IMG/VR virus record: IMGVR_UViG_3300005584_001400
Coordinates: 1 to 22,787 of that record
Strand: one strand, 5' to 3'
Length of the DNA stretch: 22,787 bases
From: a virus
The notes below the pieces were generated by a model. The model worked only from the letters and a program-made list of their open reading frames with translations. It ran no database searches and was not told where the DNA came from. Position 1 is the first letter of the stretch. Every line of letters begins with the position of its first letter. The translations under genes and the position numbers were made by a program. Of this stretch, positions 5,794 to 22,627 are shown piece by piece.

Positions 5794-5831
5794 CACTATT
5801 TTATTTACATCCTCAAAATTCTTGGTATACT
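5794..5831 (+). promoter_or_regulatory. Promoter of the CobT-like gene (leaderless type)
   Basis: TTTACA at 5804-5809, a 16-base spacer and TATACT at 5826-5831. The upstream CACTATTT at 5794-5801 is repeated at the same distance in the promoter at 8171 (14 of 17 bases identical from CACTATTT through the -35). The -10 ends 6 bases before the ATG at 5838, so the predicted mRNA begins at or next to the start codon. Confidence 0.72.
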
Positions 5832-5837
5832 AGTCTC

Positions 5838-8132
5838 ATGATCGAGCAAGACAATAAAGTGAATATGGTTCAGCAAGGAATGCTGGCCAAACTTCTCGCC
5901 AAGGAGAATCTGAGGATTCATCATGGCAACTATACGACGGCATTCTTCGACCCGGCGGCCCGCGTTCTTGGACTTCCAATCTGGAATGTCTCAAAAGACG
6001 TGTATGATCTTCTTGTCGGACATGAGGTTGGCCATGCTCTATACACGCCAGCCAGTGCCATTCAAGACTTTAGGAAGCAATGCCCCAACATCCCTTTCGA
6101 TGCTCTCAATGTCGTCGAAGATATTCGCATTGAACGAATGGTGCAGGACATGTATCCGGGTCTAAAGAGCGCATTTCAAAAGGCTTACGTCGCGATGGTT
6201 GAACGGAACTTCTTTGGAACTAAGGGAAAAGATATCGCGACACTAGGCTTCCTCGACCGTCTCAATCTCCATGCAAAAGCTGGAACGGTCGTGAATGTTA
6301 ATCTCTCTGTCGAAGAGAAAGCGATCTATGATAAATGTTTGGCAGCCCAGACAATCGAAGATTGCATTCAAATCTGCAAAGACATTGCCCACATGATTGA
6401 GAAATCGAAAAACGACGAGCGGACTAACAAGGGCGAGGATGCCAAGGGCGAGGATGCCAAGGGCGAGGATGCCAAGGGCGAGGATGCCAAGGGCGAGGAT
6501 GATGACGGAACAGAATCCGAGAGTGGTGAATCGGCCGGCGAAGGCGAAGACGATAAAGCTGAAGAATCGGAGAATGAGGAAATCTCGTTGAATGAAGATT
6601 CGAATTCTCCTGCAGGCGAAAGCGCCGCTTCTACATATTCTGAAGATGTTGGCTCGAATTCCACTGAAGGCTCAAATGCGTGTGGAGAATCGATTCCCTC
6701 TTCAAAGCGTTCGTATAGTTCCGTAGAAGAGGAGCTCACTTCGAACACGGCCGACAATTTGCAAGACTCCTTAGCAAGATGTCTTCAAGACACCTCGGGC
6801 ACGTCGCACGCGATTGAACCTTCGGAGCAGGCGATCCGCGCCTCGATCATTCCCTTCAAGACCGTTTTAAACCTTCGTCAAGCGAAGCTTCAATATAATT
6901 CGTTTATGAACGCGCCGGAGACTAAAACGTTCATCGCCGAAAGGAGAAAGTCTGCCAACAAATTCGTCTCCGCGCTGACTCGAGAATTTGAAATGCGCAA
7001 GGCGGCTTTTCAATATTCCCGTGCACGGCAATCGAATTCCGGCACTTTAAACATGTCGAAGCTTCATGCATACCGATATGCCGAAGACATCTTCAAGTCT
7101 AATACTATCACGCCCAATGCTAAGAATCACGGCATGATGATGTTTGTCGATATGTCTTCATCGATGCAAGCTTGCATCGATGACGTCTTTGAGCACACAA
7201 TCAATTTAGTCATTTTCTGCCAGAGGTTGAATATTCCGTTTGAAGTCTACGGCTTTACAACTCCAAACATAAGCCGCTTACGCAGCATCCCTGCAGCACA
7301 GTGGGAAATCAACATCCAGACGTTAAACACCGTTGAACTTTTCTCGTCGCGAATGAATTCCAAAGAGCTGGAATTGGCTATCGACCAAGTTTTGGCCAAT
7401 AGACATTTCAAATTGATTCGTTGGTCAGCCGCGAGCATTGCGAAGTATAAAAATGTCAGTCCCGTAATATGCCAATATGATGAGCTCCATGGAACTCCTC
7501 TCAACGAAACGGTGATTGTCGCTCACACTCTAGTCAGAGATTTCAGGAAAAGAAATGTTGTTCAGAAAATGAATATCGTTTTTCTGACAGACGGCGCAGG
7601 TTCACCTCTCGAATATGAATGCTCTAAGCTCGGATATCGCATGAAGACGAAAGTGTCAGTCGTAATCAATAAGCGGCTGGTCGAGTATCAGACGCATTCA
7701 TATAGTGCCAGCGCCCTAGATGTTGCGAACATATATGAAAAGCTCGTCGAGAATCTTCGAATCACGACAAATTCAAATGTGATTGGCTTCTTCATTCCAA
7801 TGAATAATGGTCGCGGAATCACGGCTATCGATTGCATGTTCCATTTCGATAGAAAGCTTCAGGTAAGTGAGCAAAACGTGCTTGACAAAGCCAAAGAACA
7901 ATATAGAAAAGAACATATCTGCGTCGTCAACGGAGCACACAATTTCACTTCCTATTTCGTTCTCCCTCCATCTGGAGAGCTCGAGCTCCAAGAAGATGGA
8001 GATTTCGCTGACGCGGTCGAGGCGAATTCTAAGCTCACGACGTCTAAATTGGCTCGAGCATTTACAAGTTTCAACAAGAAGAAGAGCGAATCTCGAGTGA
8101 TTTTGAAGAAATTCTCAGAGATTATTGCTTAA
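5838..8132 (+). CDS. CobT-like protein: HExxH metallopeptidase-type domain plus VWA domain
   Basis: A 764-residue protein in three parts. The N-terminal ~190 residues contain HEVGH (62-66), a zinc-protease HExxH motif, followed by NVVEDIRIER (91-100), whose Glu94 or Asp95 could be the third metal ligand. Residues ~195-300 are a highly acidic, serine-rich linker that includes a tandem GEDAK repeat. The C-terminal part holds a VWA fold with MIDAS residues DMSSS (Asp438, Ser440, Ser442) and FLTDG (Asp585). The LEDxRIE-like block and VWA resemble CobT/NorD proteins that work with MoxR-type AAA+ ATPases, and such an ATPase is encoded next. I infer a metal-dependent, ATPase-driven protein-remodelling or processing role; cobalt chelation is unlikely with no other cobalamin genes in view. 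It starts from its own leaderless-type promoter. Confidence 0.85.
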   Translation: MIEQDNKVNMVQQGMLAKLLAKENLRIHHGNYTTAFFDPAARVLGLPIWNVSKDVYDLLVGHEVGHALYTPASAIQDFRKQCPNIPFDALNVVEDIRIERMVQDMYPGLKSAFQKAYVAMVERNFFGTKGKDIATLGFLDRLNLHAKAGTVVNVNLSVEEKAIYDKCLAAQTIEDCIQICKDIAHMIEKSKNDERTNKGEDAKGEDAKGEDAKGEDAKGEDDDGTESESGESAGEGEDDKAEESENEEISLNEDSNSPAGESAASTYSEDVGSNSTEGSNACGESIPSSKRSYSSVEEELTSNTADNLQDSLARCLQDTSGTSHAIEPSEQAIRASIIPFKTVLNLRQAKLQYNSFMNAPETKTFIAERRKSANKFVSALTREFEMRKAAFQYSRARQSNSGTLNMSKLHAYRYAEDIFKSNTITPNAKNHGMMMFVDMSSSMQACIDDVFEHTINLVIFCQRLNIPFEVYGFTTPNISRLRSIPAAQWEINIQTLNTVELFSSRMNSKELELAIDQVLANRHFKLIRWSAASIAKYKNVSPVICQYDELHGTPLNETVIVAHTLVRDFRKRNVVQKMNIVFLTDGAGSPLEYECSKLGYRMKTKVSVVINKRLVEYQTHSYSASALDVANIYEKLVENLRITTNSNVIGFFIPMNNGRGITAIDCMFHFDRKLQVSEQNVLDKAKEQYRKEHICVVNGAHNFTSYFVLPPSGELELQEDGDFADAVEANSKLTTSKLARAFTSFNKKKSESRVILKKFSEIIA
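6431..6500 (+). repeat. 15-base tandem repeat, 4.7 copies, coding for GEDAK
   Basis: The unit GGGCGAGGATGCCAA is repeated exactly at 6431, 6446, 6461 and 6476, with a partial fifth copy at 6491-6500. It keeps frame and encodes four GEDAK pentapeptides plus GED in the acidic linker of the CobT-like protein. Perfect copies indicate recent slippage or expansion. Length changes would lengthen or shorten the linker without a frameshift. Confidence 0.95.
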
Positions 8133-8170
8133 AGATGTGCAAGTGGCTGATATTCAATTGCGTAAACTTT

Positions 8171-8208
8171 CACTATTTGCTGTACATTTAAACAAAACGG
8201 TGTAGAAT
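8171..8208 (+). promoter_or_regulatory. Promoter of the CobS-like gene
   Basis: TGTACA at 8181-8186, a 16-base spacer and TAGAAT at 8203-8208, with CACTATTT at 8171-8178 as in the promoter at 5794. Unlike most of its family, it leaves a leader of about 35 bases before the ATG at 8251. The 13 bases at 8195-8207, overlapping the -10, match the core of the palindrome at 9505-9517 at 12 of 13 positions, so the two may share a regulator. Confidence 0.62.
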
Positions 8209-8250
8209 TATCTCATAACGGTAAGAAAACAAAACGACGGAAAATATATT

Positions 8251-9468
8251 ATGAATCACTTGATTAAACTGACAGTCGAAAAACTCTATGAACGGAGTCC
8301 GGGGCAAAATGTCTGGCACCGAGATGCGATTAGTGATGTCGCGCGTTCTGTTGGACTTTCGTGGACTGACATCAATGCGCATCTCCTCAATGCAAATTTG
8401 CGCCGAGCGCGCGGATGCTATGACATTTCAATCTACCGCAGCGACACGGATATCACCGGTCCAGTCAAGTCTCCTCAGATGCCGACTGCTGAGGGCGAAA
8501 GCAATCCGTCGCCTACATCACCGGCGGCGCCCGAAGTTTTCAAGCTCGCTTCACGAACTGTTCAATCGATTGTCAATGACGACATTCACATTCCAGAAAT
8601 CGATTCGACCTTTGTTCGGTGGGGCGAATATGACACCATCCTCAAAGCAATCGAATCCAGAACGTTCTTCCCGATTTACATCTCCGGACTTTCTGGAAAT
8701 GGGAAGACTATCATGGTGAAGCAAGTATGTGCTAAACTCAAGCGCGAATATTGCCGAGTTCAAATCTCTCCGGAAACTGACGAAGATGATTTGATTGGCG
8801 GATTTCGACTTCTGGGAGGCGAGACGGTATTTTGCAAAGGCCCGGTCATTAAAGCGATGGAACGTGGATGTGTCCTGCTCATCGATGAAATTGACCGCGG
8901 TTCGAACAAAATTATGTGTCTGCAGGGAATTCTAGAAGGCGAGCCGGTGCTCATCAAGAAGACAGGTCAGATAATCGTTCCCGCTCCCGGATTCACGATT
9001 ATTGCGACGGCGAATACGAAAGGGCGCGGTTCCGACGATGGTCGTTTCTCGGCGGCCGCATTCATCGATGAAGCTTTCCTCGAGCGATTTGTTGCTACGA
9101 TCGAGCAAGAATATCCTTCCGCTTCTGTCGAAAAGAAGATCGTGATGAAGCACATGGAGCTGTATGGGAAAGTCGATGAAGCCTTTGCCGATCACTTGGT
9201 CTCATGGTCCAATGTTATTCGAAAGACACATGCAAGTGAGGCGATCGATGATTTGATTTCAACTCGAAGACTCTGTCACATCACACACACTTTCGCCATC
9301 TATGGCGATCGAGCGCGTGCCATTAAACTTTGTACGGCTCGATTTAATCAGGATACGCGGAATGCCTTCATGGACCTTTATTCAAAAATCGACGCAACGA
9401 TCGTCGTTTCAACGACCGTCGTTTCTCCCGCTCCTCAAGAGCCCGCTCCTCTTCCTTCGCCTTTCTGA
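8251..9468 (+). CDS. cobS-like: CobS/MoxR-like AAA+ ATPase
   Basis: A 405-residue ATPase closely resembling the protein called CobS in T4-like cyanophages. Residues 1-60 (LTVEKLYERSPGQNVWHRDA onward) look like a small helical winged-helix-type module, then a Pro/Ser-rich linker. The AAA+ core starts near 120: Walker A SGLSGNGKT with Lys152, ETDEDDLIGGFRL, Walker B VLLIDEID with Asp212/Glu213, sensor 1 in IIATANTKGRGSDDGRFS, and an EAFLERF arginine-finger segment. The tail is Pro-rich. The pairing with a VWA protein next door is the usual arrangement of MoxR-VWA or CobS-CobT partners, so I infer one complex. The cobS name in phages reflects similarity, not shown cobalamin synthesis. Own promoter with a short leader. 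Confidence 0.9.
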   Translation: MNHLIKLTVEKLYERSPGQNVWHRDAISDVARSVGLSWTDINAHLLNANLRRARGCYDISIYRSDTDITGPVKSPQMPTAEGESNPSPTSPAAPEVFKLASRTVQSIVNDDIHIPEIDSTFVRWGEYDTILKAIESRTFFPIYISGLSGNGKTIMVKQVCAKLKREYCRVQISPETDEDDLIGGFRLLGGETVFCKGPVIKAMERGCVLLIDEIDRGSNKIMCLQGILEGEPVLIKKTGQIIVPAPGFTIIATANTKGRGSDDGRFSAAAFIDEAFLERFVATIEQEYPSASVEKKIVMKHMELYGKVDEAFADHLVSWSNVIRKTHASEAIDDLISTRRLCHITHTFAIYGDRARAIKLCTARFNQDTRNAFMDLYSKIDATIVVSTTVVSPAPQEPAPLPSPF

Positions 9469-13728: not shown

Positions 13729-14841
13729 ATGGATACGTTTAAATTGTCGCCAGAGAATTCGAGCTCAGATTTCAAAATCTATTGCGATATGGATGGTGTT
13801 CTAGTCGATTTCCTTGGAGCATTTCGACAGCTCTCCGGAGGAAAGGATTGGGATGAAGCGCTTCGCGATTTAGGCTTCGAGGAAGTTTGGCGCCTGATAA
13901 ATCATGGTGGATCTGCTTGGTGGGAAAATCTCGAATGGCTTTCCGATGGACACAAGCTTTGGGAATTTATACGCCAATTCAATCCAATAATTCTTTCGGC
14001 TGGAGCGACTTCTCGGACCGGGAATCTCGCCCAGATAGGAAAAAAAGCATGGTGTGCCAGAGAACTTGGAGGTTCCATCGAGGTTATCGTAGCCGATCGT
14101 GGAACAGATAAAAAATACTGGGCCAAGCCCGGGTATATTTTAATCGATGATCTGGAGGAAAACATCCTCGTCTGGAAAAGCCGTGGAGGCATAGGAATTC
14201 ATCACCAGGACGCTCTCAGAACGATTTCTGAGCTGAAGCAGTATATGCAACCGCCTCAGGACAAAAAGAGCCTGGGGGAGAACTGGAGAGCTGGAATAGC
14301 AGGCGGAATGATGGCCTTGGGAGCCCTGACAGGCCCTGGAGCTCTTCCAGATGCGTCTGGAGCCAGTATGACAATGCCCATCAAACGTCCTGCCGTACGT
14401 CCTGCCGTACGTGCCACCGTGCGCACGGAGGCTGAGAATATGAATATCTTTGCCTCCACTTTAATTGGAGAAGCCGGCGGTGAAGGCATTAAAGGCATGC
14501 AAGCCGTCGCCAATGTCATCATGAATCGTGCTCGGGGCGACTTCTCCAAAGTTGGCGCCGTCTGCCTTAAACCATATCAATTTTCGATGTGGAATGGAAA
14601 ACGCGATCAGATCAAGTCTGTTGTGCACAAAGCTAAAGCTCATGCTCGTTGGAAAGATGCTATGCTTTTGATTCAACAAGCTAAAGATGGTAAGCTGCAG
14701 GACATTACCGGCGGCAGCGACTTCTACTTCAATCCAAAGTTGGCAATGCCTAAATGGGCCAATCAATTTGAAAAAACATATACGATCGGTCGACATGATT
14801 TTTACAAGCACGGCAAAGTTGCTGTCTCCAAGTTCTATTGA
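13729..14841 (+). CDS. Fusion of HAD-type 5'-nucleotidase-like phosphatase and SleB-like cell-wall hydrolase
   Basis: Two enzymes in 370 residues. Residues 15-175 are a HAD fold: motif I YCDMDGVLVDF (Asp20, Asp22), motif II LSAG (Ser90), Lys in the cap/motif III region (Lys106 or Lys128) and motif IV LIDDLEEN (Asp140, Asp141). This resembles the 5'(3')-deoxyribonucleotidase-like proteins of phages. Residues ~185-212 are Gly/Ala-rich and hydrophobic (AGIAGGMMALGALTGPGALP), perhaps a membrane-associating or flexible segment. A short RPAV repeat follows. Residues ~233-370 match SleB/CwlJ-type hydrolases (PF07486), with probable catalytic Glu248 in FASTLIGEAGGEGIKGMQAV and ANVIMNR. SleB domains cut peptidoglycan glycan strands, so a lysis or entry role is likely; why it is joined to a phosphatase is unclear. 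Confidence 0.88.
   Translation: MDTFKLSPENSSSDFKIYCDMDGVLVDFLGAFRQLSGGKDWDEALRDLGFEEVWRLINHGGSAWWENLEWLSDGHKLWEFIRQFNPIILSAGATSRTGNLAQIGKKAWCARELGGSIEVIVADRGTDKKYWAKPGYILIDDLEENILVWKSRGGIGIHHQDALRTISELKQYMQPPQDKKSLGENWRAGIAGGMMALGALTGPGALPDASGASMTMPIKRPAVRPAVRATVRTEAENMNIFASTLIGEAGGEGIKGMQAVANVIMNRARGDFSKVGAVCLKPYQFSMWNGKRDQIKSVVHKAKAHARWKDAMLLIQQAKDGKLQDITGGSDFYFNPKLAMPKWANQFEKTYTIGRHDFYKHGKVAVSKFY
14386..14421 (+). repeat. 12-base tandem repeat in the HAD-SleB linker
   Basis: CGTCCTGCCGTA occurs exactly at 14386-14397 and 14398-14409, followed by a degenerate third copy at 14410-14421. It encodes RPAV RPAV RATV, a basic, proline-containing hinge between the hydrophobic segment and the SleB domain. 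Confidence 0.85.
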
Positions 14842-15424: not shown

Positions 15425-17980
15425 GTGCCTAAGCTAAATCTCCAATTTTACACGTCTGTTGCCAGGTCGATGAATATGCTGTTGGTTCGTGGATATGATA
15501 GAAAAGGAAATCGAGTTCAAGAGAAGGTTCGATATCGCCCGACTTTTTACCTCGAATCTAAAGATCCTTCAAGAACAAAGCTCCGAGCGCTCGATGGTAC
15601 GCCGGTTGAGGAAATGCATTTCGATTCGATGTCCGAATCTAGAAAGTTTGTTGAGACATATAAAGATGTTCCAAGCTTTAAAGTGTATGGAAATGATCGG
15701 CACATTCCGGCATTCATCTACTCCCAATTTCCGCTGACGGTTCCATATCTTCCAGCGCTCATTCGAATCTGTACACTCGACATCGAGGTGGGTAAAGAAG
15801 CGTGGGGTTATTCTGAAGTCGATGAAGCTAAAAATCCAATCACGGCTATTACGGTAAAGAATTCAACAGATAACACATGTCATACGTGGGGTTTGAAACC
15901 CTACGACTCTTCGAAGGCTATCACAACACGATATGCAATCGACTATCGCCAGTTTAAAACTGAAGGTCAGATGCTCGAAGATTTTCTTCGTTGGTGGATT
16001 CATCCGGATAATTCTCCGGATATTATCACCGGTTGGAACGTTCGAGCCTTTGATATTCCATATCTGGTCACTCGAATCACAAATCTCGGCGGCGATGAGG
16101 CGGCCAGAGTGATGAGTCCATGGAACTTAGTTGAAAGGAAAGAGGTGAAGCTCCGAGGGAAAGCACAACTTATGTGCGAGCTCGTCGGAATTCAACAGCT
16201 CGATTACATGGATCTCTTTCAGAAGTTTGCATATACCTATGGAGCACAGGAACAGTATACTCTGAATCACATTGCCAAAGTTGTTCTGGATGCAAATAAA
16301 CTCGAATATGAGGGCACGCTCGACGATCTGTATCATGCAGATCATCAAAATTTTATTAACTACAATATAATCGATGTTGAACTTGTAGATCGTCTGGAGG
16401 AGAAGCTAGGTCTGATTCAGCTCGTTCTAATGATGGCTTACATGGGCGGCGTGAACTACGCGGACACACTAGGAACGACAGCGATCTGGGATTCAATCAT
16501 CTTTCGTAAGTTGGCCAATTCAAATCGCATTGTTCCATTTCAGGACGAGCCGCCTGCACATGTTCCTCAATTCTCCGGCGGGTACGTGAAAGATGTTGAA
16601 GTTGGAATGCATGAGTGGGTGCTTTCATGTGACGTAAATTCTGAATATCCAAACCTGATTGTGCAATATAACATGTCGCCCGAAACATATATTCCTCAGA
16701 CGAAGATGGAAGTAAATCCAGACATGATCATCGATCGAATCTTAAATGATCGACCACTCTTTTCAGAGGATCCGGAAGTATGTGTGGCCGCTAACGGTGC
16801 ATGTTTTCGAAAGGATATCAAAGGCATCATTCCTCTCATTGTTGAAGATCTATATGAACGCCGAGTGAAGGTTAAAAAGGAAGCTTCTACGAATAAAAGA
16901 TTACTCGAATCTCTGTCTAAAGATTCCTCTGACAGGCCAATCATCGAGAAAGTAATTGCCAAGCTCGACACCGAGCAGCTGGCCGTGAAAATTCTTCTAA
17001 ATTCGCTTTTCGGAGCCTGTGGAAACAAGTATTTCCGTCACTTCAATCTGGCGATGGCTGAGGGAATAACACTCTCCGGCCAGACGGCAATTCGCCTGGC
17101 CGAATTAGCCGTTAATCGGTATGTTTCAAAGATGATAGGAGTGGAAAAGGACAGAGTTCTGGCTGTCGATACCGATTCCATCTACGTTACACTAAAAGAT
17201 GTTGTCGACAAATTCAAGCCCTCAGATCCTATTTCATTTCTCAACGAGTTCTACGAGAAAGGAATCGGTCCTGAAATTGAGTTAATCTTTGAAAAGTTAT
17301 TCAAAGCTACCAGAGCCTATAAAAATCGCATGGTCATGAAGCGTGAAGCAATTGCCGATCGCGGTGTCTGGACAGCCAAGAAGCGATACATTCTAAACGT
17401 CCTAGATAATGAGGGCGTACGCTACGCCGAACCTAAGTTGAAGATAATGGGCATTGAGGCCATCAAGTCTTCGACTCCGGCCGTATGTCGAAGTGAAATG
17501 AAACGAATGTTTAAGATTATCATGTCGGGCGATGAGAAGAAAACTCAGGCTACAATTGCTGAATTTCGCGTAAGCTTTTCTAGTCTGCCTCCACTTCAAA
17601 TTGCTTTCCCTCGAGGTACCTCCGATTTAGAAACATATGAATGCAAATCGCAGATCTATCGAAAGGGCACACCCATTCACGTGCGCGGTTCGCTCTTATA
17701 CAATCACCTCCTCTCGGTGAAAGGACTTGAATCCAAATATAAAAGCATTAAATCTGGAGATAAAATTCGGTTCATCTACTTGAAAGTGCCAAATGATATT
17801 CATGAGAATGTGATAGCGTTTCCGGCTTCAATCGATTTACCCATTGAATTTGGTCTCCACAAATTCATCGATTACGATTTGCAATTTGATAAGACGTTCC
17901 TCGAGCCGCTTCAAATTATTCTAAAGTCGATTGGATGGACGTCAAAAGACTCTGGCTCACTCGAAGAATTCTTTGGATAA
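15425..17980 (+). CDS. 43: gp43-like family B DNA polymerase
   Basis: Replicative polymerase with 3'-5' proofreading, homologous to T4/RB69 gp43; 851 residues against 898 in T4. The exonuclease is intact: Exo I LDIEVG (Asp119, Glu121), Exo II GWNVRAFDIP (Asp210), Exo III YNIIDVELVD (Tyr313, Asp317). Polymerase motifs are A CDVNSEYP (Asp403), B KILLNSLFG (Lys522, Asn526) and C VDTDS (Asp582, Asp584). Two pocket positions differ from T4/RB69: the Leu of SLYP is Glu407 and the Tyr of motif B is Phe529. The protein ends GSLEEFFG, matching the clamp-binding LDFLFG tail of T4 gp43. No intron, intein or frameshift is seen. The GTG at 15425 is chosen because residues 1-20 fit the T4 N terminus and the promoter points to it; the first in-frame ATG is 16 codons later. 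Confidence 0.97.
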   Translation: MPKLNLQFYTSVARSMNMLLVRGYDRKGNRVQEKVRYRPTFYLESKDPSRTKLRALDGTPVEEMHFDSMSESRKFVETYKDVPSFKVYGNDRHIPAFIYSQFPLTVPYLPALIRICTLDIEVGKEAWGYSEVDEAKNPITAITVKNSTDNTCHTWGLKPYDSSKAITTRYAIDYRQFKTEGQMLEDFLRWWIHPDNSPDIITGWNVRAFDIPYLVTRITNLGGDEAARVMSPWNLVERKEVKLRGKAQLMCELVGIQQLDYMDLFQKFAYTYGAQEQYTLNHIAKVVLDANKLEYEGTLDDLYHADHQNFINYNIIDVELVDRLEEKLGLIQLVLMMAYMGGVNYADTLGTTAIWDSIIFRKLANSNRIVPFQDEPPAHVPQFSGGYVKDVEVGMHEWVLSCDVNSEYPNLIVQYNMSPETYIPQTKMEVNPDMIIDRILNDRPLFSEDPEVCVAANGACFRKDIKGIIPLIVEDLYERRVKVKKEASTNKRLLESLSKDSSDRPIIEKVIAKLDTEQLAVKILLNSLFGACGNKYFRHFNLAMAEGITLSGQTAIRLAELAVNRYVSKMIGVEKDRVLAVDTDSIYVTLKDVVDKFKPSDPISFLNEFYEKGIGPEIELIFEKLFKATRAYKNRMVMKREAIADRGVWTAKKRYILNVLDNEGVRYAEPKLKIMGIEAIKSSTPAVCRSEMKRMFKIIMSGDEKKTQATIAEFRVSFSSLPPLQIAFPRGTSDLETYECKSQIYRKGTPIHVRGSLLYNHLLSVKGLESKYKSIKSGDKIRFIYLKVPNDIHENVIAFPASIDLPIEFGLHKFIDYDLQFDKTFLEPLQIILKSIGWTSKDSGSLEEFFG

Positions 17981-17983
17981 ACT

Positions 17984-18208
17984 ATGAAAGCAATACTCGA
18001 ATTTAATCTACCAGAAGAATCACGTGAACATCGCGCGGCTATTCAGGCGCTCGATTGGAAGTACGTCGTCGAGGATATGGATCAATATCTCCGTTCTCAA
18101 ATGAAATATCAGGGGCTGACCAAAGAAGCCAATGATGCACTGCAGGCGGCTCGAGATAATCTCACTAACCTTTGCAACGATAACGACATAAACATAAATG
18201 AATACTAA
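17984..18208 (+). CDS. Small conserved phage protein (MKAILEFNLP type)
   Basis: A 74-residue acidic protein that begins MKAILEFNLPEESREHRAAI, then contains ALDWKYVVEDMDQYLRSQMK and a helical C terminus. Proteins with this start, a short strand followed by a WxxxxxDQYLR helix, are common in phages of many kinds and have no established function that I know of. It starts 3 bases after the gene 43 stop and its end overlaps the next gene by 11 bases, so it is co-translated with both. A GGA lies 11 bases before the ATG, a weak ribosome-binding signal at best. Confidence 0.82.
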   Translation: MKAILEFNLPEESREHRAAIQALDWKYVVEDMDQYLRSQMKYQGLTKEANDALQAARDNLTNLCNDNDININEY

Positions 18209-18611
18209 CTGGCCACGTGATATCGCAGAAATGCACACTCATTATGGTGTGAAAGAGGCAACATCGAAGCTCGATTCGGAGAAGCTAAAAGCATATCTTC
18301 AATTTCGATTTGACTTTCTACAGGAAGAGATCAATGAAGGTAAGGCCGCTATACAAACGGGAAACTCAGAAGAGATCGTCGATGCGCTGATCGACCTTTG
18401 CGTCGTCGCTATCGGCACTCTAGATGCGTATGGCGTGGATGGACAGAAAGCATGGGATGAGGTGCTCAGAGCGAATATGTCTAAGAAGATTGGCATCAAG
18501 GCTTCTCGACCAAATCCCTATGGACTTCCAGATCTCGTAAAGCCGCCGGGGTTTATATCTCCATCCCATCAAGGCAATCATGGAATCATTCCAAAGGCTT
18601 TTGAAAAATAA
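18198..18611 (+). CDS. MazG-like NTP pyrophosphohydrolase
   Basis: A 137-residue protein with the all-alpha NTP-PPase core: FRFDFLQEEINEGKAAIQTG (EExxE metal-binding helix), then SEEIVDALIDLCVVAIGTLD (ExxD on the second metal-binding helix) and AWDEVLRANMSKKIG. These acidic pairs bind Mg2+ in MazG and phosphoribosyl-ATP pyrophosphohydrolase relatives. The C-terminal ~35 residues, Pro/Gly/His-rich (GLPDLVKPPGFISPSHQGNH), are probably a disordered tail. The enzyme likely cleaves a dNTP or an alarmone-related nucleotide to adjust pools during replication; the substrate cannot be read from sequence. The ATG at 18198 overlaps the upstream gene; Met12 at 18231 is a possible alternative start. The promoter of the next gene overlaps its stop codon. 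Confidence 0.85.
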   Translation: MNTNWPRDIAEMHTHYGVKEATSKLDSEKLKAYLQFRFDFLQEEINEGKAAIQTGNSEEIVDALIDLCVVAIGTLDAYGVDGQKAWDEVLRANMSKKIGIKASRPNPYGLPDLVKPPGFISPSHQGNHGIIPKAFEK

Positions 18612-18643
18612 AGCTGTACATTTGATTCAATCTGAAGTACATT
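18603..18643 (+). promoter_or_regulatory. Promoter of the primase-like gene (leaderless type)
   Basis: TGTACA at 18615-18620, a 17-base spacer and TACATT at 18638-18643. Bases 18603-18622 match 2271-2290 at 17 of 20. The -10 ends 8 bases before the ATG at 18652. It leaves only 2 bases before the in-frame TTG at 18646, which argues that ATG 18652 is the true start. Confidence 0.65.
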
Positions 18644-18651
18644 AGTTGCAC

Positions 18652-19602
18652 ATGGTAGCACTGACAATATTTAAGTCGATCTTCGATAATAAGACCCATC
18701 GTAAGATGGAGCTTCAATCGTTCGATCAGCTCGAAGATCTTCTATATAATCTGTCAAAGGCTCCTGGCTACAAGCCTAGGAAAGATGAGAGGTTTAATTC
18801 GAATGCATCTCCACTCATCACTCCAGCTACGTTTCAGGCTGGAATGACTCGCGCTAATGCAAACGTAATAGGCTGGGCAGGATGGGCCGCGATCGACGTC
18901 GATGAGTATCCGGCTGGCGGATTCGAAGATGCGATCGCGGCTTTTAGAGGATGCCGGCACGTCTGTTATTCATCGGCATCTTCAAAGAAAGAGCATCCTA
19001 AGTTTCGAGTAGTTCTTCCTCTAACATGTTCTGTGCCGGCCGAGAAGATTCGGCACTTCTGGTTCGCTCTCAATAAAGAGTTTAAGTCTTTGGCCGATCC
19101 GCAGACCAAAGATCTTTCTCGAATGTATTACGTGCCTGCGCAGTATCCAGATGCACATAACTTTATTTTCTCACATCGAGAAGCCCCTATTCTAAATCCT
19201 CCGGAGCTGATGTCAAAATACTTCTACATTGAGAAAGCGCAGCCCGGTATTCTGGATAATCTTCCAGAACATGTGCAGAAGTCTATTGAAAAATATCAGA
19301 GGAGTCGATTGACTAACTCCCATAAGTATTCTTGGACATCATATAAGAATTGTTCATTTGTCAAAAGGGAATTGGTTCGACAATATGAATCAATATCTTC
19401 TACTGGATGGTATCGATTGATGTATGTTATCATGTCATCTATTGCCGCTTCGGCTATTCGAAAAGGATATCCAATCACGGCTTCTGAAATTTCCACGCTT
19501 TGTCGAGAACTCGATCGCGATAATGGATCTTGGTACAAGAATCGTGGAATGGAAATCGAAGCGGCCCGCGCAATAACCTTTGCTCTGAAAGGTGCTAAAT
19601 AA
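18652..19602 (+). CDS. AEP-type primase/polymerase-like protein
   Basis: A protein of 316 residues from ATG 18652. The central part matches archaeo-eukaryotic primase (PrimPol) proteins of phages and plasmids: GWAAIDVDEYP (Asp82 and Asp84 as the metal-binding DxD), YSSASSKKEHPKFRVVLPLT (the second motif and conserved Arg119), then ADPQTKDLSRMYYVPAQYPD (a third-motif Asp and the SRxYYVP strand). In the usual second motif a His follows Ser; here it reads SSASS, so the NTP-binding His may be lost or displaced. The C-terminal ~100 residues are helical (GWYRLMYVIMSSIAASAIRK) and may be a primase C-terminal or helix-bundle domain. T4 primes with gp61, a DnaG-type enzyme, so this would be an added or replacement priming activity. 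Confidence 0.72.
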   Translation: MVALTIFKSIFDNKTHRKMELQSFDQLEDLLYNLSKAPGYKPRKDERFNSNASPLITPATFQAGMTRANANVIGWAGWAAIDVDEYPAGGFEDAIAAFRGCRHVCYSSASSKKEHPKFRVVLPLTCSVPAEKIRHFWFALNKEFKSLADPQTKDLSRMYYVPAQYPDAHNFIFSHREAPILNPPELMSKYFYIEKAQPGILDNLPEHVQKSIEKYQRSRLTNSHKYSWTSYKNCSFVKRELVRQYESISSTGWYRLMYVIMSSIAASAIRKGYPITASEISTLCRELDRDNGSWYKNRGMEIEAARAITFALKGAK

Positions 19603-19606
19603 ATTT

Positions 19607-20281
19607 ATGAAAGTCGCCGTCATAACACCATATTACAAAGAAGACGAGACGATGATGCTTCGATGCATCAACTCCGTCAAGGCTCAGACACATAAAGACG
19701 TAACACACCTGCTTGTCGCGGATGGTCATCCTCATGCCAATCATGCTTCATGGGGAGTTGAGCACATGGCTATTCCAAACTGCGGAGACTATGGAGACAC
19801 TCCTCGAGCAGTGGGTGCAGCTATTATTGCATGTCGAAAAGAATATGACGCCGTAGCCTTTCTCGATGCAGATAACTGGTATGAGCCGAATCATGTTGAA
19901 GAAGCATTGCGGCATATGAATAAGCCTATCGTGACGACTGGACGAAACCTCCGTCGTGTCGATGAATCTCTTCTAGCTCAGTGTCCAGAGTCTGACGGCA
20001 TCAACTTTTGTGACACGAACTGCTACGTAATTCATCGAAATGCCTTTGGCGTCATTGGCCGTTGGACCTATAAGGAGAATAAGTATGGTATCGTCGGTGA
20101 TCGGATGTTCTGGGCGAGTCTTCCAAAAGAACACGTAGCCCGATCGCCAAAGTATACGGTAAACTATACGACTAAGTTCGCCGTTCACTATCTTCATTTT
20201 GGTGAAAAGCCTCCGGAAGATGCTATCGAATTTAAGAATGGTCCAGATGGATTACCAGTGGCGCATAGATATTATTCGTAA
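19607..20281 (+). CDS. GT2-family glycosyltransferase
   Basis: A GT-A-fold glycosyltransferase of 224 residues. The N terminus VAVITPYYKEDETMMLRCIN and SVKAQTHKDVTHLLVADGHP is the classic GT2 nucleotide-binding strand and loop. AFLDADNWY (Asp87, Asp89) is the metal-binding DxD-type motif. The acceptor half includes CDTNCYVIHRNAF and GDRMFW, where the Asp of GDR may be the catalytic base. The ATG at 19607 is preferred over an in-frame GTG at 19592 that lies inside the previous gene, because the beta strand begins right at 19607. It opens the sugar-related cassette and ends 1 base before the next gene. The donor sugar and the target are unknown. Confidence 0.88.
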   Translation: MKVAVITPYYKEDETMMLRCINSVKAQTHKDVTHLLVADGHPHANHASWGVEHMAIPNCGDYGDTPRAVGAAIIACRKEYDAVAFLDADNWYEPNHVEEALRHMNKPIVTTGRNLRRVDESLLAQCPESDGINFCDTNCYVIHRNAFGVIGRWTYKENKYGIVGDRMFWASLPKEHVARSPKYTVNYTTKFAVHYLHFGEKPPEDAIEFKNGPDGLPVAHRYYS

Positions 20282-20282
20282 T

Positions 20283-21206
20283 ATGCATATGGCTTACGTA
20301 AATATATGGCCGGGATTCGATCAAAATGATTATCCTGAAAAATGTTTCTTTACAAAACTACTTCGCGAATCTGCCTCAGATCTTAAAATAGACGTCGGCA
20401 TGCGTCAAGGAGAAAGGTACGATCTGGTGCTGTCGATGTTTTCCCCGATGGCCGGCGCGCCGGCATATAAAGACATGAATACGGTTGAATCCAAGAGTAT
20501 CTGCTTTACCGGAGAGAGTTACGACGTCGTATCAACGACTCCAGGATGTGGAGCTTATATTGGCTTCGATCATATCAAAGATGTTTCAAGTGATGTGAAA
20601 TACTTAAGATTTCCTCTCTATGCAATGTACCATTTGGATTACATGGAAAAATATGCATGCTCATCATTTGAAGAATTGAGACGCAAATTCGAAAAGAATA
20701 CACATACGAAGAAGTATTCGGCCGTCGTATCCAATCCAAATAATCAATTGAGAACAGAAGTCATTAGAACACTCACGTCAATTGGACTATGCGATTCCGG
20801 AGGTGCCGTTCATAACACGGTCGGTCAGATAGGATGGTCATCTGATGCCAAGATGGATCTGAGTTCACGATCAATGTATGGCATGGCATTCGAGAATAGA
20901 TCTAAAGTTGGTTACATAACAGAGAAGATCTATGAGTGCTTCATGGCTGGAACCGTGCCATATTACTGGGGCGCATCGGATATCAATGAAGAGTTTAATC
21001 CTAATTCATATCACACATTCGATTCATCGAGCCTTGAATCAATCAATAAATCTATTCAGCATATGATCGATGTTCTATCTAATGATTCGCTACGCCAAAC
21101 TATGAAAGTTGTTGATCCATTCGCAGGATTGAGATCTGAAGTATACATAAAGAATGGAAAGCAAATCATCAAAGATTTCATTATGAATTATATTGAAACC
21201 AAATGA
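20283..21206 (+). CDS. GT10-like (alpha-1,3-fucosyltransferase-type) glycosyltransferase
   Basis: A 307-residue GT-B-type enzyme. The C-terminal domain has the family signature GYITEKIYECFMAGTVPYYW followed by GASDINEEFNP (Glu214, Lys215), which binds the nucleotide sugar in GT10 fucosyltransferases. AVVSNPNNQLRTEVIRTL resembles the start of the C-terminal Rossmann domain (compare VxSNC...R). The N-terminal half (VNIWPGFDQNDY, ICFTGESYDV) fits the acceptor domain. The frame opens further upstream, but 84 bases of that overlap the previous gene, so ATG 20283 or 20289 is the likely start. Its end overlaps the next gene by 4 bases (ATGA). GDP-fucose is the usual GT10 donor; the actual donor and acceptor here are inferred at family level only. 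Confidence 0.85.
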   Translation: MHMAYVNIWPGFDQNDYPEKCFFTKLLRESASDLKIDVGMRQGERYDLVLSMFSPMAGAPAYKDMNTVESKSICFTGESYDVVSTTPGCGAYIGFDHIKDVSSDVKYLRFPLYAMYHLDYMEKYACSSFEELRRKFEKNTHTKKYSAVVSNPNNQLRTEVIRTLTSIGLCDSGGAVHNTVGQIGWSSDAKMDLSSRSMYGMAFENRSKVGYITEKIYECFMAGTVPYYWGASDINEEFNPNSYHTFDSSSLESINKSIQHMIDVLSNDSLRQTMKVVDPFAGLRSEVYIKNGKQIIKDFIMNYIETK

Positions 21207-21991
21207 AAAAGCTTTTTCTGTCATCTTCTGCAGGCTATAATTGGGATCACATCGAGACTTGGAATCTATCCGCAAAAAAGACTGGTCATGACGTATGTAA
21301 CATTCTCATCAATCCAGCCAACGACTTAATCGAGTCGTGTACGGTTAATCAGGTTGGAGCGATTGCATATTCTATACGGAATACAAATAAGCCACCGCAC
21401 AATCTTAGATTTTTACTGCAATATAAGTATCTCATGTCTGTAGCGGATAAGTATTCTCATGTTGTTTTGACGGATAGTCGAGATGTATATTTTCATTCGA
21501 ATCCATTTCCTTTGATCGAACGATTGATGGAACAACGAAAAAGAAGCATCATCTGTGGAAGTGAGTGTATCGCATATCAGGATGAACCGTGGGGAAATCG
21601 AAATCTCATGGAGGGTTTCTGGTACGTCTATGATGAATATAAGACTCGTGAGATCTGCAATGTCGGTGTGCTCTGCGGAGACGTTAGATGCGTAGCCGAA
21701 CTTTGCCTCATGCTGTTTACGATGTGTTATCATAATCCAGCCAGTGTATCAGATCAGTCTTCATTCAATGTGCTAATGGGCACGGCATTTGGTCAGGAAA
21801 AGATAGCCGTGACAAAGCCATCGGATGGTCTCATGATTCATCTTGGTACGATCGGTGATCAAAAGTTCAAAGACAAACTTACTGAGAAGTCTACGTGGGA
21901 TGAAAGCAAGTTGCCTATGATCGATGATATTGTTATACCGATCATTCATCAATACGATCGAATCCATCACGTAAAAAACTTAATAAACTGA
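21203..21991 (+). CDS. GT-A-type glycosyltransferase-like protein
   Basis: A 262-residue protein beginning MKKLFLSSSAGYNWDHIETW. The central segment RFLLQYKYLMSVADKYSHVV leads into LTDSRDVYFHSNPF, where Asp91 and Asp94 form a DxxD in the position of the GT-A metal motif. The tDSRDVxFxxdPF pattern is that of nucleotide-diphospho-sugar transferases related to PF03407 and GT8-like enzymes. Later blocks ICNVGVLCGDVRCV and SDQSSFNVLMGT (an N-x-G strand and a D-x-S acceptor-side motif) are typical of these. No signal peptide or membrane segment. It overlaps the previous gene by 4 bases and precedes an FkbM methyltransferase, so it belongs to the same cassette. Substrates unknown. Confidence 0.8.
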   Translation: MKKLFLSSSAGYNWDHIETWNLSAKKTGHDVCNILINPANDLIESCTVNQVGAIAYSIRNTNKPPHNLRFLLQYKYLMSVADKYSHVVLTDSRDVYFHSNPFPLIERLMEQRKRSIICGSECIAYQDEPWGNRNLMEGFWYVYDEYKTREICNVGVLCGDVRCVAELCLMLFTMCYHNPASVSDQSSFNVLMGTAFGQEKIAVTKPSDGLMIHLGTIGDQKFKDKLTEKSTWDESKLPMIDDIVIPIIHQYDRIHHVKNLIN

Positions 21992-22006
21992 TTAGAAATA
22001 CGAATT

Positions 22007-22627
22007 ATGGAATACTTCTCTCAACTGCAGCAAGACAAATTTGTCGATGACATTTTGAAGCAAAAAACAGACGGGTTTTTCATCGACATAGGTGCGCATG
22101 ATGGCGTATCATGTTCTAATACGCTGTTTTTCGAACGCTTTCGAAATTGGAATGGAATTTGTATAGAACCGGCATCGGTTGAATTCAAAAAACTAGTTGA
22201 GAATCGGCGTTCGACGAATATCAACGCGTGTGTCTCTGATTACAACGGAGAATCAGAATTCACGTATGTGGATGGTTATGCTATGATGCTTTCCGGATTG
22301 ACGGAGCGATTCAATCAGATGCACATCAATCGAATAAACGATGAAGTAAAGATGCATGGTGGTAGCATCAATCGCATTATGTGCCCGGTCATCACGCTTC
22401 AGAGTATCTTCGAAAAGCATTCGATATATGACGTTGACTATTGTTCTATCGACACGGAAGGCTCGGAACTGCAGATTGTTAAGTCGATCGATTTTGATAA
22501 AACGAACATAAAGGTTTTTAGCATTGAAAATAATTATCAGGAAACTGATATCCAACACTTCTTAGAATCTAAAGGATATAAGTTGACGATAAAGCTGGCT
22601 TGGGATGATATCTACGTGAAAATATGA
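22007..22627 (+). CDS. FkbM-family methyltransferase
   Basis: A SAM-dependent methyltransferase of 206 residues with the FkbM plan: SQLQQDKFVDDIL, then FIDIGAHDGVSCSNTLFFE (25-43, the SAM-binding glycine loop), NWNGICIEP (48-55, acidic residue that holds the ribose), ACVSDYNGESEF, and YCSIDTEGSELQIVKSIDF (the conserved DTEGxE region). Family members methylate hydroxyl groups of sugars or antibiotics. In phages they commonly travel with glycosyltransferases, so the target is probably a sugar added by the preceding enzymes. The stop overlaps the ATG of the next gene (ATGA), indicating coupled translation. Complete, with no broken motif. Confidence 0.92.
   Translation: MEYFSQLQQDKFVDDILKQKTDGFFIDIGAHDGVSCSNTLFFERFRNWNGICIEPASVEFKKLVENRRSTNINACVSDYNGESEFTYVDGYAMMLSGLTERFNQMHINRINDEVKMHGGSINRIMCPVITLQSIFEKHSIYDVDYCSIDTEGSELQIVKSIDFDKTNIKVFSIENNYQETDIQHFLESKGYKLTIKLAWDDIYVKI

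Follow-up and report, generated by a model that had tools for sequence, protein, structure and literature searches.

A peptidase-like/VWA protein and its partner MoxR/CobS-type ATPase in the replication block of T4-like phages: a candidate protein-remodelling machine

The gene cobS was listed as a core gene of T4-like cyanophages by Sullivan et al. in 2010 (PMC3037559), and it is often cited as an auxiliary metabolic gene (AMG) for vitamin B12. Liu et al. (2021) read the viral cobST genes as acting with, and hijacking, the CobN protein of the host (PMC8651126), whereas Iyer et al. (2021) proposed that the MoxR-vWA-metallopeptidase pair of jumbo phages is a virion-assembly chaperone (PMC7824862). 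In NorQD, a finger of the VWA domain enters the pore of the AAA+ ring, the N-terminal domain sits on the ring, the linker is stretched, and the metal-ion-dependent adhesion site (MIDAS) contacts the client (PMC13036017). Here we analyse a pair of this kind in the virus record IMGVR_UViG_3300005584_001400 (22,787 nucleotides, hereafter the window), a 22.8-kb stretch carrying the replication block of a T4-like phage, in which a gene for a metallopeptidase-like/VWA protein precedes one for a MoxR/CobS-type AAA+ ATPase. Both open reading frames (ORFs) were located exactly at the coordinates given in a preliminary description of this DNA (5838-8132 and 8251-9468). The pair is already known, since both genes belong to PHROG families (phrog_459 and phrog_249) that occur in hundreds of phages, where their names refer to vitamin B12, and have received two published interpretations (PMC8651126, PMC7824862), so that the suggestion of an undescribed system does not hold. 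These two interpretations conflict, and a conserved HExxH motif offers a direct test between them.

The chances are, in our judgement, evenly balanced that the pair forms a machine which remodels proteins with the energy of ATP during the replication phase, one arm of it being metal-dependent and probably proteolytic. Residue conservation was counted over 42 phage homologues with a mutual identity below 92%. The zinc-protease motif HEVGH, which the preliminary description had reported as intact, is so in the window, and its residues H62, E63 and H66 are invariant in all the homologues. In the AlphaFold2 model of residues 1-188 (predicted local distance difference test, pLDDT, 87.8), this motif lies in helix 53-69 and E94 in helix 87-105, the next helix but one; this is the gluzincin pattern of HExxH plus a Glu on a later helix, and both elements are invariant. 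A Foldseek search with the model returned zincins at all of ranks 1-9 (selecase/jannalysin and ArdC, with E values of 0.13 or above), with Wss1 and PprI at lower ranks; the predicted fold that holds the HEVGH helix is zincin-like. Scans with Pfam and NCBIfam profiles gave no usable match to the peptidase protein, and the search of PDB sequences with it gave only matches resembling low complexity.

The five MIDAS residues of the same protein (D438, S440, S442, T553 and D585) are likewise invariant across the homologues, and because of this invariance neither HEVGH nor the MIDAS can be taken as a chance occurrence. Pfam profiles gave no VWA match to the 764-residue protein; the model of residues 336-764 had as its best solved match the VWA domain of NorD in complex with NorQ (E value 1e-6), which agrees with the VWA domain and complete MIDAS claimed beforehand. 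The adjacent ATPase, described from the outset as of MoxR/CobS type with full Walker motifs, does carry Walker A and B, together with an ATANT sensor 1 and an ERF arginine finger, all of them nearly invariant across 33 representatives, and its PDB matches were chains of midasin, CobS and NorQ. An AAA+ protein with these four elements thus stands beside a VWA protein with a complete MIDAS, as in MoxR/VWA pairs.

The two genes co-occur almost perfectly, in what amounts to a near-obligate pairing. Among 50,697 phage records, 463 matched the peptidase and 510 the ATPase, and the two counts agree for Synechococcus (365/365), Cyanophage (61/61), Prochlorococcus (24/24) and Pelagibacter (3/3); these are tallies by organism name, with record-by-record identity confirmed for the records that were opened. 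The surplus ATPase records, outside the T4-like phages (Vibrio 13, Rhizobium 10, Pseudomonas 6, Klebsiella 6, and also Stenotrophomonas), equal in number the records with a more distant CobT-type partner. Phages therefore generally keep both genes, the exceptions being two phage contigs (L052 and L065 in our numbering of loci) that hold the peptidase gene with no ATPase next door; in L065, gp45 follows directly. The ATPase gene lies upstream in L088 and L104, and on the opposite strand in L099 and L101.

In T4-like phages, the position of the pair is also fixed. The window shows the gene order uvsW, gp55, gp47, gp46, peptidase/VWA gene, AAA+ gene, small ORF, dATP/dGTP diphosphohydrolase-like gene, gp45, gp44, gp62 and gp43-type polymerase, where the identities of gp47, gp46 and the polymerase were assigned from sequence and from synteny with HTVC008M and Syn9. 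Both of these phages carry the pair between gp46 and gp45, as the window does. Relatives were sampled at 79 IMG/VR loci, and of the T4-like ones 50 out of 56 have gp46 upstream of the pair, while all 41 that could be tested have gp45/gp44 downstream.

Analysis of the upstream regions revealed similar sigma70-type sites at both genes, so that the matched promoters noted at first do exist, but they are not special to the pair, as a similar site also precedes gp55. The 8-mer CACTATTT occurs in the window only upstream of the two genes (5794 and 8171). It was rejected as a pair-specific signal, since base composition predicts about 1.1 copies and the upstream box is variable in the relatives L005-L008, where a T[GT]TACA-N16-TATACT-like sigma70-type site persists at both genes. 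In HTVC008M and Syn9, the 200 bases ahead of each of the two genes contain no late T4-like [N]ATAAATA sequence, and none lies near the pair in the window; Syn9 gp22 does carry one. In both the window and Syn9, the sites at the two genes are sigma70-type rather than late TATAAATA. The promoter type favours expression alongside the replication genes and speaks against a purely virion role.

This evidence bears directly on the idea of a virion-assembly chaperone-protease that would remodel and cut structural proteins during head or tail maturation. Such a role was published for the jumbo-phage pair, with a precedent in the tail of Acidianus two-tailed virus (PMC7824862), and the intact peptidase-type residues suit it. 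However, the genes lie among gp46, gp45 and gp44 and not among virion genes, the promoter sites in the window and in Syn9 are not of the late type, and relatives occur on conjugative plasmids and at loci resembling integrative and conjugative elements (ICEs), which make no virions. We regard this explanation as unlikely.

Cobaltochelatase subunits CobS and CobT that commandeer the host CobN and raise cobalamin output, as in the reading of Liu et al. and the cyanophage AMG annotation (PMC8651126), are another candidate reading, and the ATPase does match the CobS equivalog TIGR01650. The match reaches only 55.7 bits, against a cut-off of 558.6, and the CobT models stay at noise level against the window peptidase protein, with no match to the equivalog TIGR01651. 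To obtain genuine CobT proteins, alphaproteobacterial genomes were searched above the curated CobT cut-off, and 25 N-terminal domains were read; these were selected by E-x-A-R-x-E, a shared motif which is therefore not independent evidence. HExxH is found in 42 of 42 phage homologues and in none of the 25 genuine CobT domains, most of which have HHDxxxH at that place. With hhalign, the phage N-terminal domain was linked to the IncC/ICE-type proteins at 99.4% and to proteins of a DnaE-linked clade (see below) at 97.5%, and the latter to CobT at 72%, whereas the direct comparison of phage domain and CobT gave a non-significant 4.6%. Since homology to CobT runs only through intermediates, CobT is a remote cousin without the metal site, and we infer that it has lost HExxH. 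In the ATPase tree, T4-like ATPases and genuine CobS fall in separate clades (branches are long, and the tree was used only for that separateness). The CobN query matched 2 of the 50,697 phage records, neither of them a cyanophage. A near full-length, unannotated CobN-like match lies at 16274-19957 of OQ572414.1 (Pseudomonas phage Y13), and may be host DNA or a true phage gene. The nrdA and nrdB genes encode a class I reductase that is independent of B12, and SAR11 is not known to make cobalamin. The cyanophage P-HM2, a carrier of the pair, has nrdA/nrdB (PMC5082946), and SAR11, the host of pelagiphages carrying the pair, is without MetH and MetE (PMC12478193). Taken together, the pair is very probably not a cobalt chelatase, and the commandeering of CobN is quite improbable. 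The earlier view of the metallopeptidase-like domain, VWA domain and MoxR-type ATPase, as likelier to remodel proteins than to insert cobalt, is supported.

A comparably improbable explanation is that the pair serves a phage metalloenzyme as a chaperone for metal insertion or for a cofactor, in the manner of NorQD for iron in nitric oxide reductase, where HExxH would bind or pass on the metal without cutting. NorQD is a metal-insertion machine (PMC13036017) and NorD is the closest structural match of the VWA region; in addition, HTVC008M and Syn9 have genes for 2-oxoglutarate-Fe(II) oxygenases close to the pair. Yet no single metalloenzyme was common to all carriers in the neighbourhoods read, and the IncC/ICE carriers adjoin recombination genes instead. 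A conflict or counter-defence device, to which the preliminary description had drawn a link, is very unlikely, for although the pair has its domain logic in common with MoxR-VWA ternary systems (PMC7159879) and is distributed across mobile elements, PADLOC gave no match for it, no VMAP/iSTAND/FtsH/propeller third protein stands beside it, and its core position in the replication module of T4-like phages is fixed rather than of the variable-island kind.

In the remodelling machine that we favour, the MoxR-type ATPase would form a hexameric ring, on which the VWA domain would dock as NorD does on NorQ. By the same analogy, the metal-bound MIDAS may grip the client protein, which ATP turnover would then twist or pull. 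The N-terminal domain, on its long acidic linker, would present a gluzincin-like metal site formed by HExxH and the Glu helix, and, so tethered, would probably cut the strained client or else hold or clamp it. Whether this domain is an active protease we judge an even call. The client would most likely be a phage or host protein tied to DNA replication or recombination, for which we put the chances slightly short of even.

Several observations weigh against this proposal. The Foldseek match of the predicted N-terminal domain to zincins is weak (best E value 0.13, TM-score below 0.5). Both HExxH histidines are lost in three DnaE-linked members, namely hairong (SEIAK), an Acinetobacter element (QEVAK) and BUCTxx99 (REVST), which keep the VWA region, the ATPase and the position. 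Most members therefore retain the metal site, but it is not indispensable everywhere, as would be expected if remodelling were the essential activity and cutting a supplement to it. The Gordonia phage Kvothe has no annotated replication gene beside the pair, CRP-810 has only a DNA-repair endonuclease V there, and closeness to replication genes may reflect mere modular packing. Finally, both the client and the enzymatic activity are ones that we infer. The histidine-less CobT-type partners (L084:3370-5448, SEIAK; L170:3703-5631, QEVAK; L207:5983-7968, REVST) constitute a natural experiment on the metal site.

More distant relatives extend the distribution of the pair to several unrelated mobile elements, in which it adjoins genes of replication or recombination, and this counts in favour of the replication reading. 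HExxH was also found in Rhizobium phages V1VFA-S and RHEph10, SSU5, a Klebsiella phage-plasmid, ICP2 (as HECYH), CRP-810 and an IncC plasmid; in ICP2, the pair lies near primase, helicase and DNA polymerase I genes. Rhizobium, Nickievirus (Pseudomonas), Stenotrophomonas and SSU5-type phages, with Klebsiella, Acinetobacter and Methylobacterium elements, carry a DNA polymerase III alpha gene (labelled 'DNA polymerase' in SSU5) one to several genes further along; because these DnaE-linked carriers form a single clade in the ATPase tree, they count once as evidence from context. Two CobS-type ATPases of this clade (L083:5596-6891 and L084:5542-6789) start with a Cys/His zinc-finger-like stretch, perhaps DNA-binding, with a weak C2H2 match in L083. 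IncC plasmids carry AAA, a hypothetical gene, ssb, bet, exo, DUF3150 and VWA. A genome scan gave 52 further distant loci (L115-L166), of which 42 have DUF3150 and 24 have ssb, bet or exo no farther than about 10 kb away; as these loci were retrieved by the patterns NxxEDxRIE or HEVGHAL, finding either motif in them carries no independent weight. Most of them have HExxH, which is absent from at least L118, L125, L127, L129 and L131; those five were excluded from alignment A4, in which it is invariant. Relatives labelled NorD, such as that of L123, which would have been cases of NorD with an intact HExxH, were dropped as such, since their neighbours (AAA, DUF3150 and tra genes) mark them as plasmid/ICE-type proteins. 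Two proteins annotated NorD within AAA-DUF3150-VWA sets near tra genes (L168:5001-6815, an IncP plasmid; L123:9839-11653, Pseudomonas) are probably misnamed. For plasmid Rts1, the deletion data (PMC10838148) could be assigned to neither the AAA nor the VWA gene.

It is possible, although we advance it tentatively and with more doubt than assent, that phage cobS-cobT, the IncC/ICE-type AAA-DUF3150-VWA set and the DnaE-linked genes of phage-plasmids all encode a single machine, widespread among mobile elements. It would be a remodelling protease coupled to replication or recombination, and genuine CobT would be a derived cousin of it that is catalytically dead. If so, the much-cited cyanophage cobS would be no vitamin gene at all. 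Should the pair act as a remodelling protease during replication, one of the most frequent AMG assignments in the sea is mistaken, and a shared protein machine connects phages with IncC-type conjugative plasmids.

Table 1. Coordinates of the features of the pair in the window
Feature	Position	Strand	Basis or remarks
Gene for 764-aa metallopeptidase-like/VWA protein	5838..8132	+	phrog_459 'peptidase', E 8.8e-159; 'CobT' of Liu 2021; 463 phage records
N-terminal zincin-like domain, residues 13-188	5874..6401	+	AlphaFold2 pLDDT 87.8; Foldseek; hhalign 99.4% to plasmid/ICE family
HEVGH, residues 62-66	6021..6035	+	H62, E63, H66 invariant in 42/42
N91-VV-E94-D95-I-R97-I98-E99, putative third-ligand helix	6108..6134	+	N91, E94, D95, R97, I98 in 42/42; E99 in 40/42
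Acidic low-complexity linker with GEDAK repeats	6402..6842	+	sequence
VWA region with helical extensions, residues 336-764	6843..8129	+	AlphaFold2 pLDDT 78.7; Foldseek top match NorD VWA 9qh6_G, E 1e-6
MIDAS DMSSS, residues 438-442	7149..7163	+	completed by T553 (7494-7496) and D585 (7590-7592)
Gene for 405-aa MoxR/CobS-type AAA+ ATPase	8251..9468	+	phrog_249, E 1.4e-100; AAA_5 66.7 bits
Walker A GLSGNGKT, residues 146-153	8686..8709	+	conserved in 33 representatives
Walker B LLIDEID, residues 209-215	8875..8895	+	D212, E213, D215 in 33/33
Promoter-like site, sigma70-type, TTTACA-N16-TATACT, with upstream CACTATTT	5794..5831	+	similar site in L005-L008
Promoter-like site, sigma70-type, TGTACA-N16-TAGAAT, with upstream CACTATTT	8171..8208	+	similar site in L005-L008

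The GEDAK units of the linker (Table 1) are encoded by a tandem 15-base repeat at 6431-6500. The direct neighbours of the pair are gp46 on one side and an 84-aa ORF, the dATP/dGTP diphosphohydrolase-like protein and gp45 on the other. Elsewhere in the window, an ORF at 13729-14841 appears by eye to be an unusual fusion of a HAD/5'-nucleotidase-like N-terminus with a SleB-like cell-wall hydrolase C-terminus. At 19592-22627, downstream of the replication genes, a cluster that by eye comprises glycosyltransferases (one fucosyltransferase-like) and an FkbM-type methyltransferase was seen.

Compared with the described systems, the pair shares with CobS/CobT (TIGR01650/TIGR01651) the layout of an AAA+ protein plus a protein with N-terminal domain, acidic linker and VWA, but the phage proteins score far under the curated cut-offs, the phage is without CobN, and most CobT proteins read HHDxxxH where the phage proteins have HExxH. 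NorQ/NorD, the closest solved structure to the VWA region, has the same VWA fold and MIDAS and differs in client and context, the likeness resting on the VWA region. In the AAA-DUF3150-VWA set of IncC plasmids and ICEs, the N-terminal domain is homologous and has HExxH and NxxEDxRIE alike, whereas the third gene (DUF3150), the ssb/bet/exo neighbours and the shorter protein set it apart. The group 2.2 jumbo-phage pair (PMC7824862), likened here by its published description rather than by accession, has the same domain architecture and partner; it was published with a virion-assembly proposal, whereas the window pair belongs to a replication module and its promoters are not of the late type. The viral cobST cluster (PMC8651126) covers the cyanophage genes explicitly and calls 'cobT' mis-annotated as a peptidase; the metallopeptidase motif, intact in the window and absent from genuine CobT, argues against that reading. 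The closest described system is the phrog_459 'peptidase'/phrog_249 'porphyrin biosynthesis (CobS)' pair of T4-like cyanophages and pelagiphages, which matches over nearly the full length and is alike in gene order and in its location between gp46 and gp45. The window proteins are diverged members of it, with about 30% identity (peptidase) and 45-58% identity (ATPase) to those of named phages, and differ from them in nothing essential.

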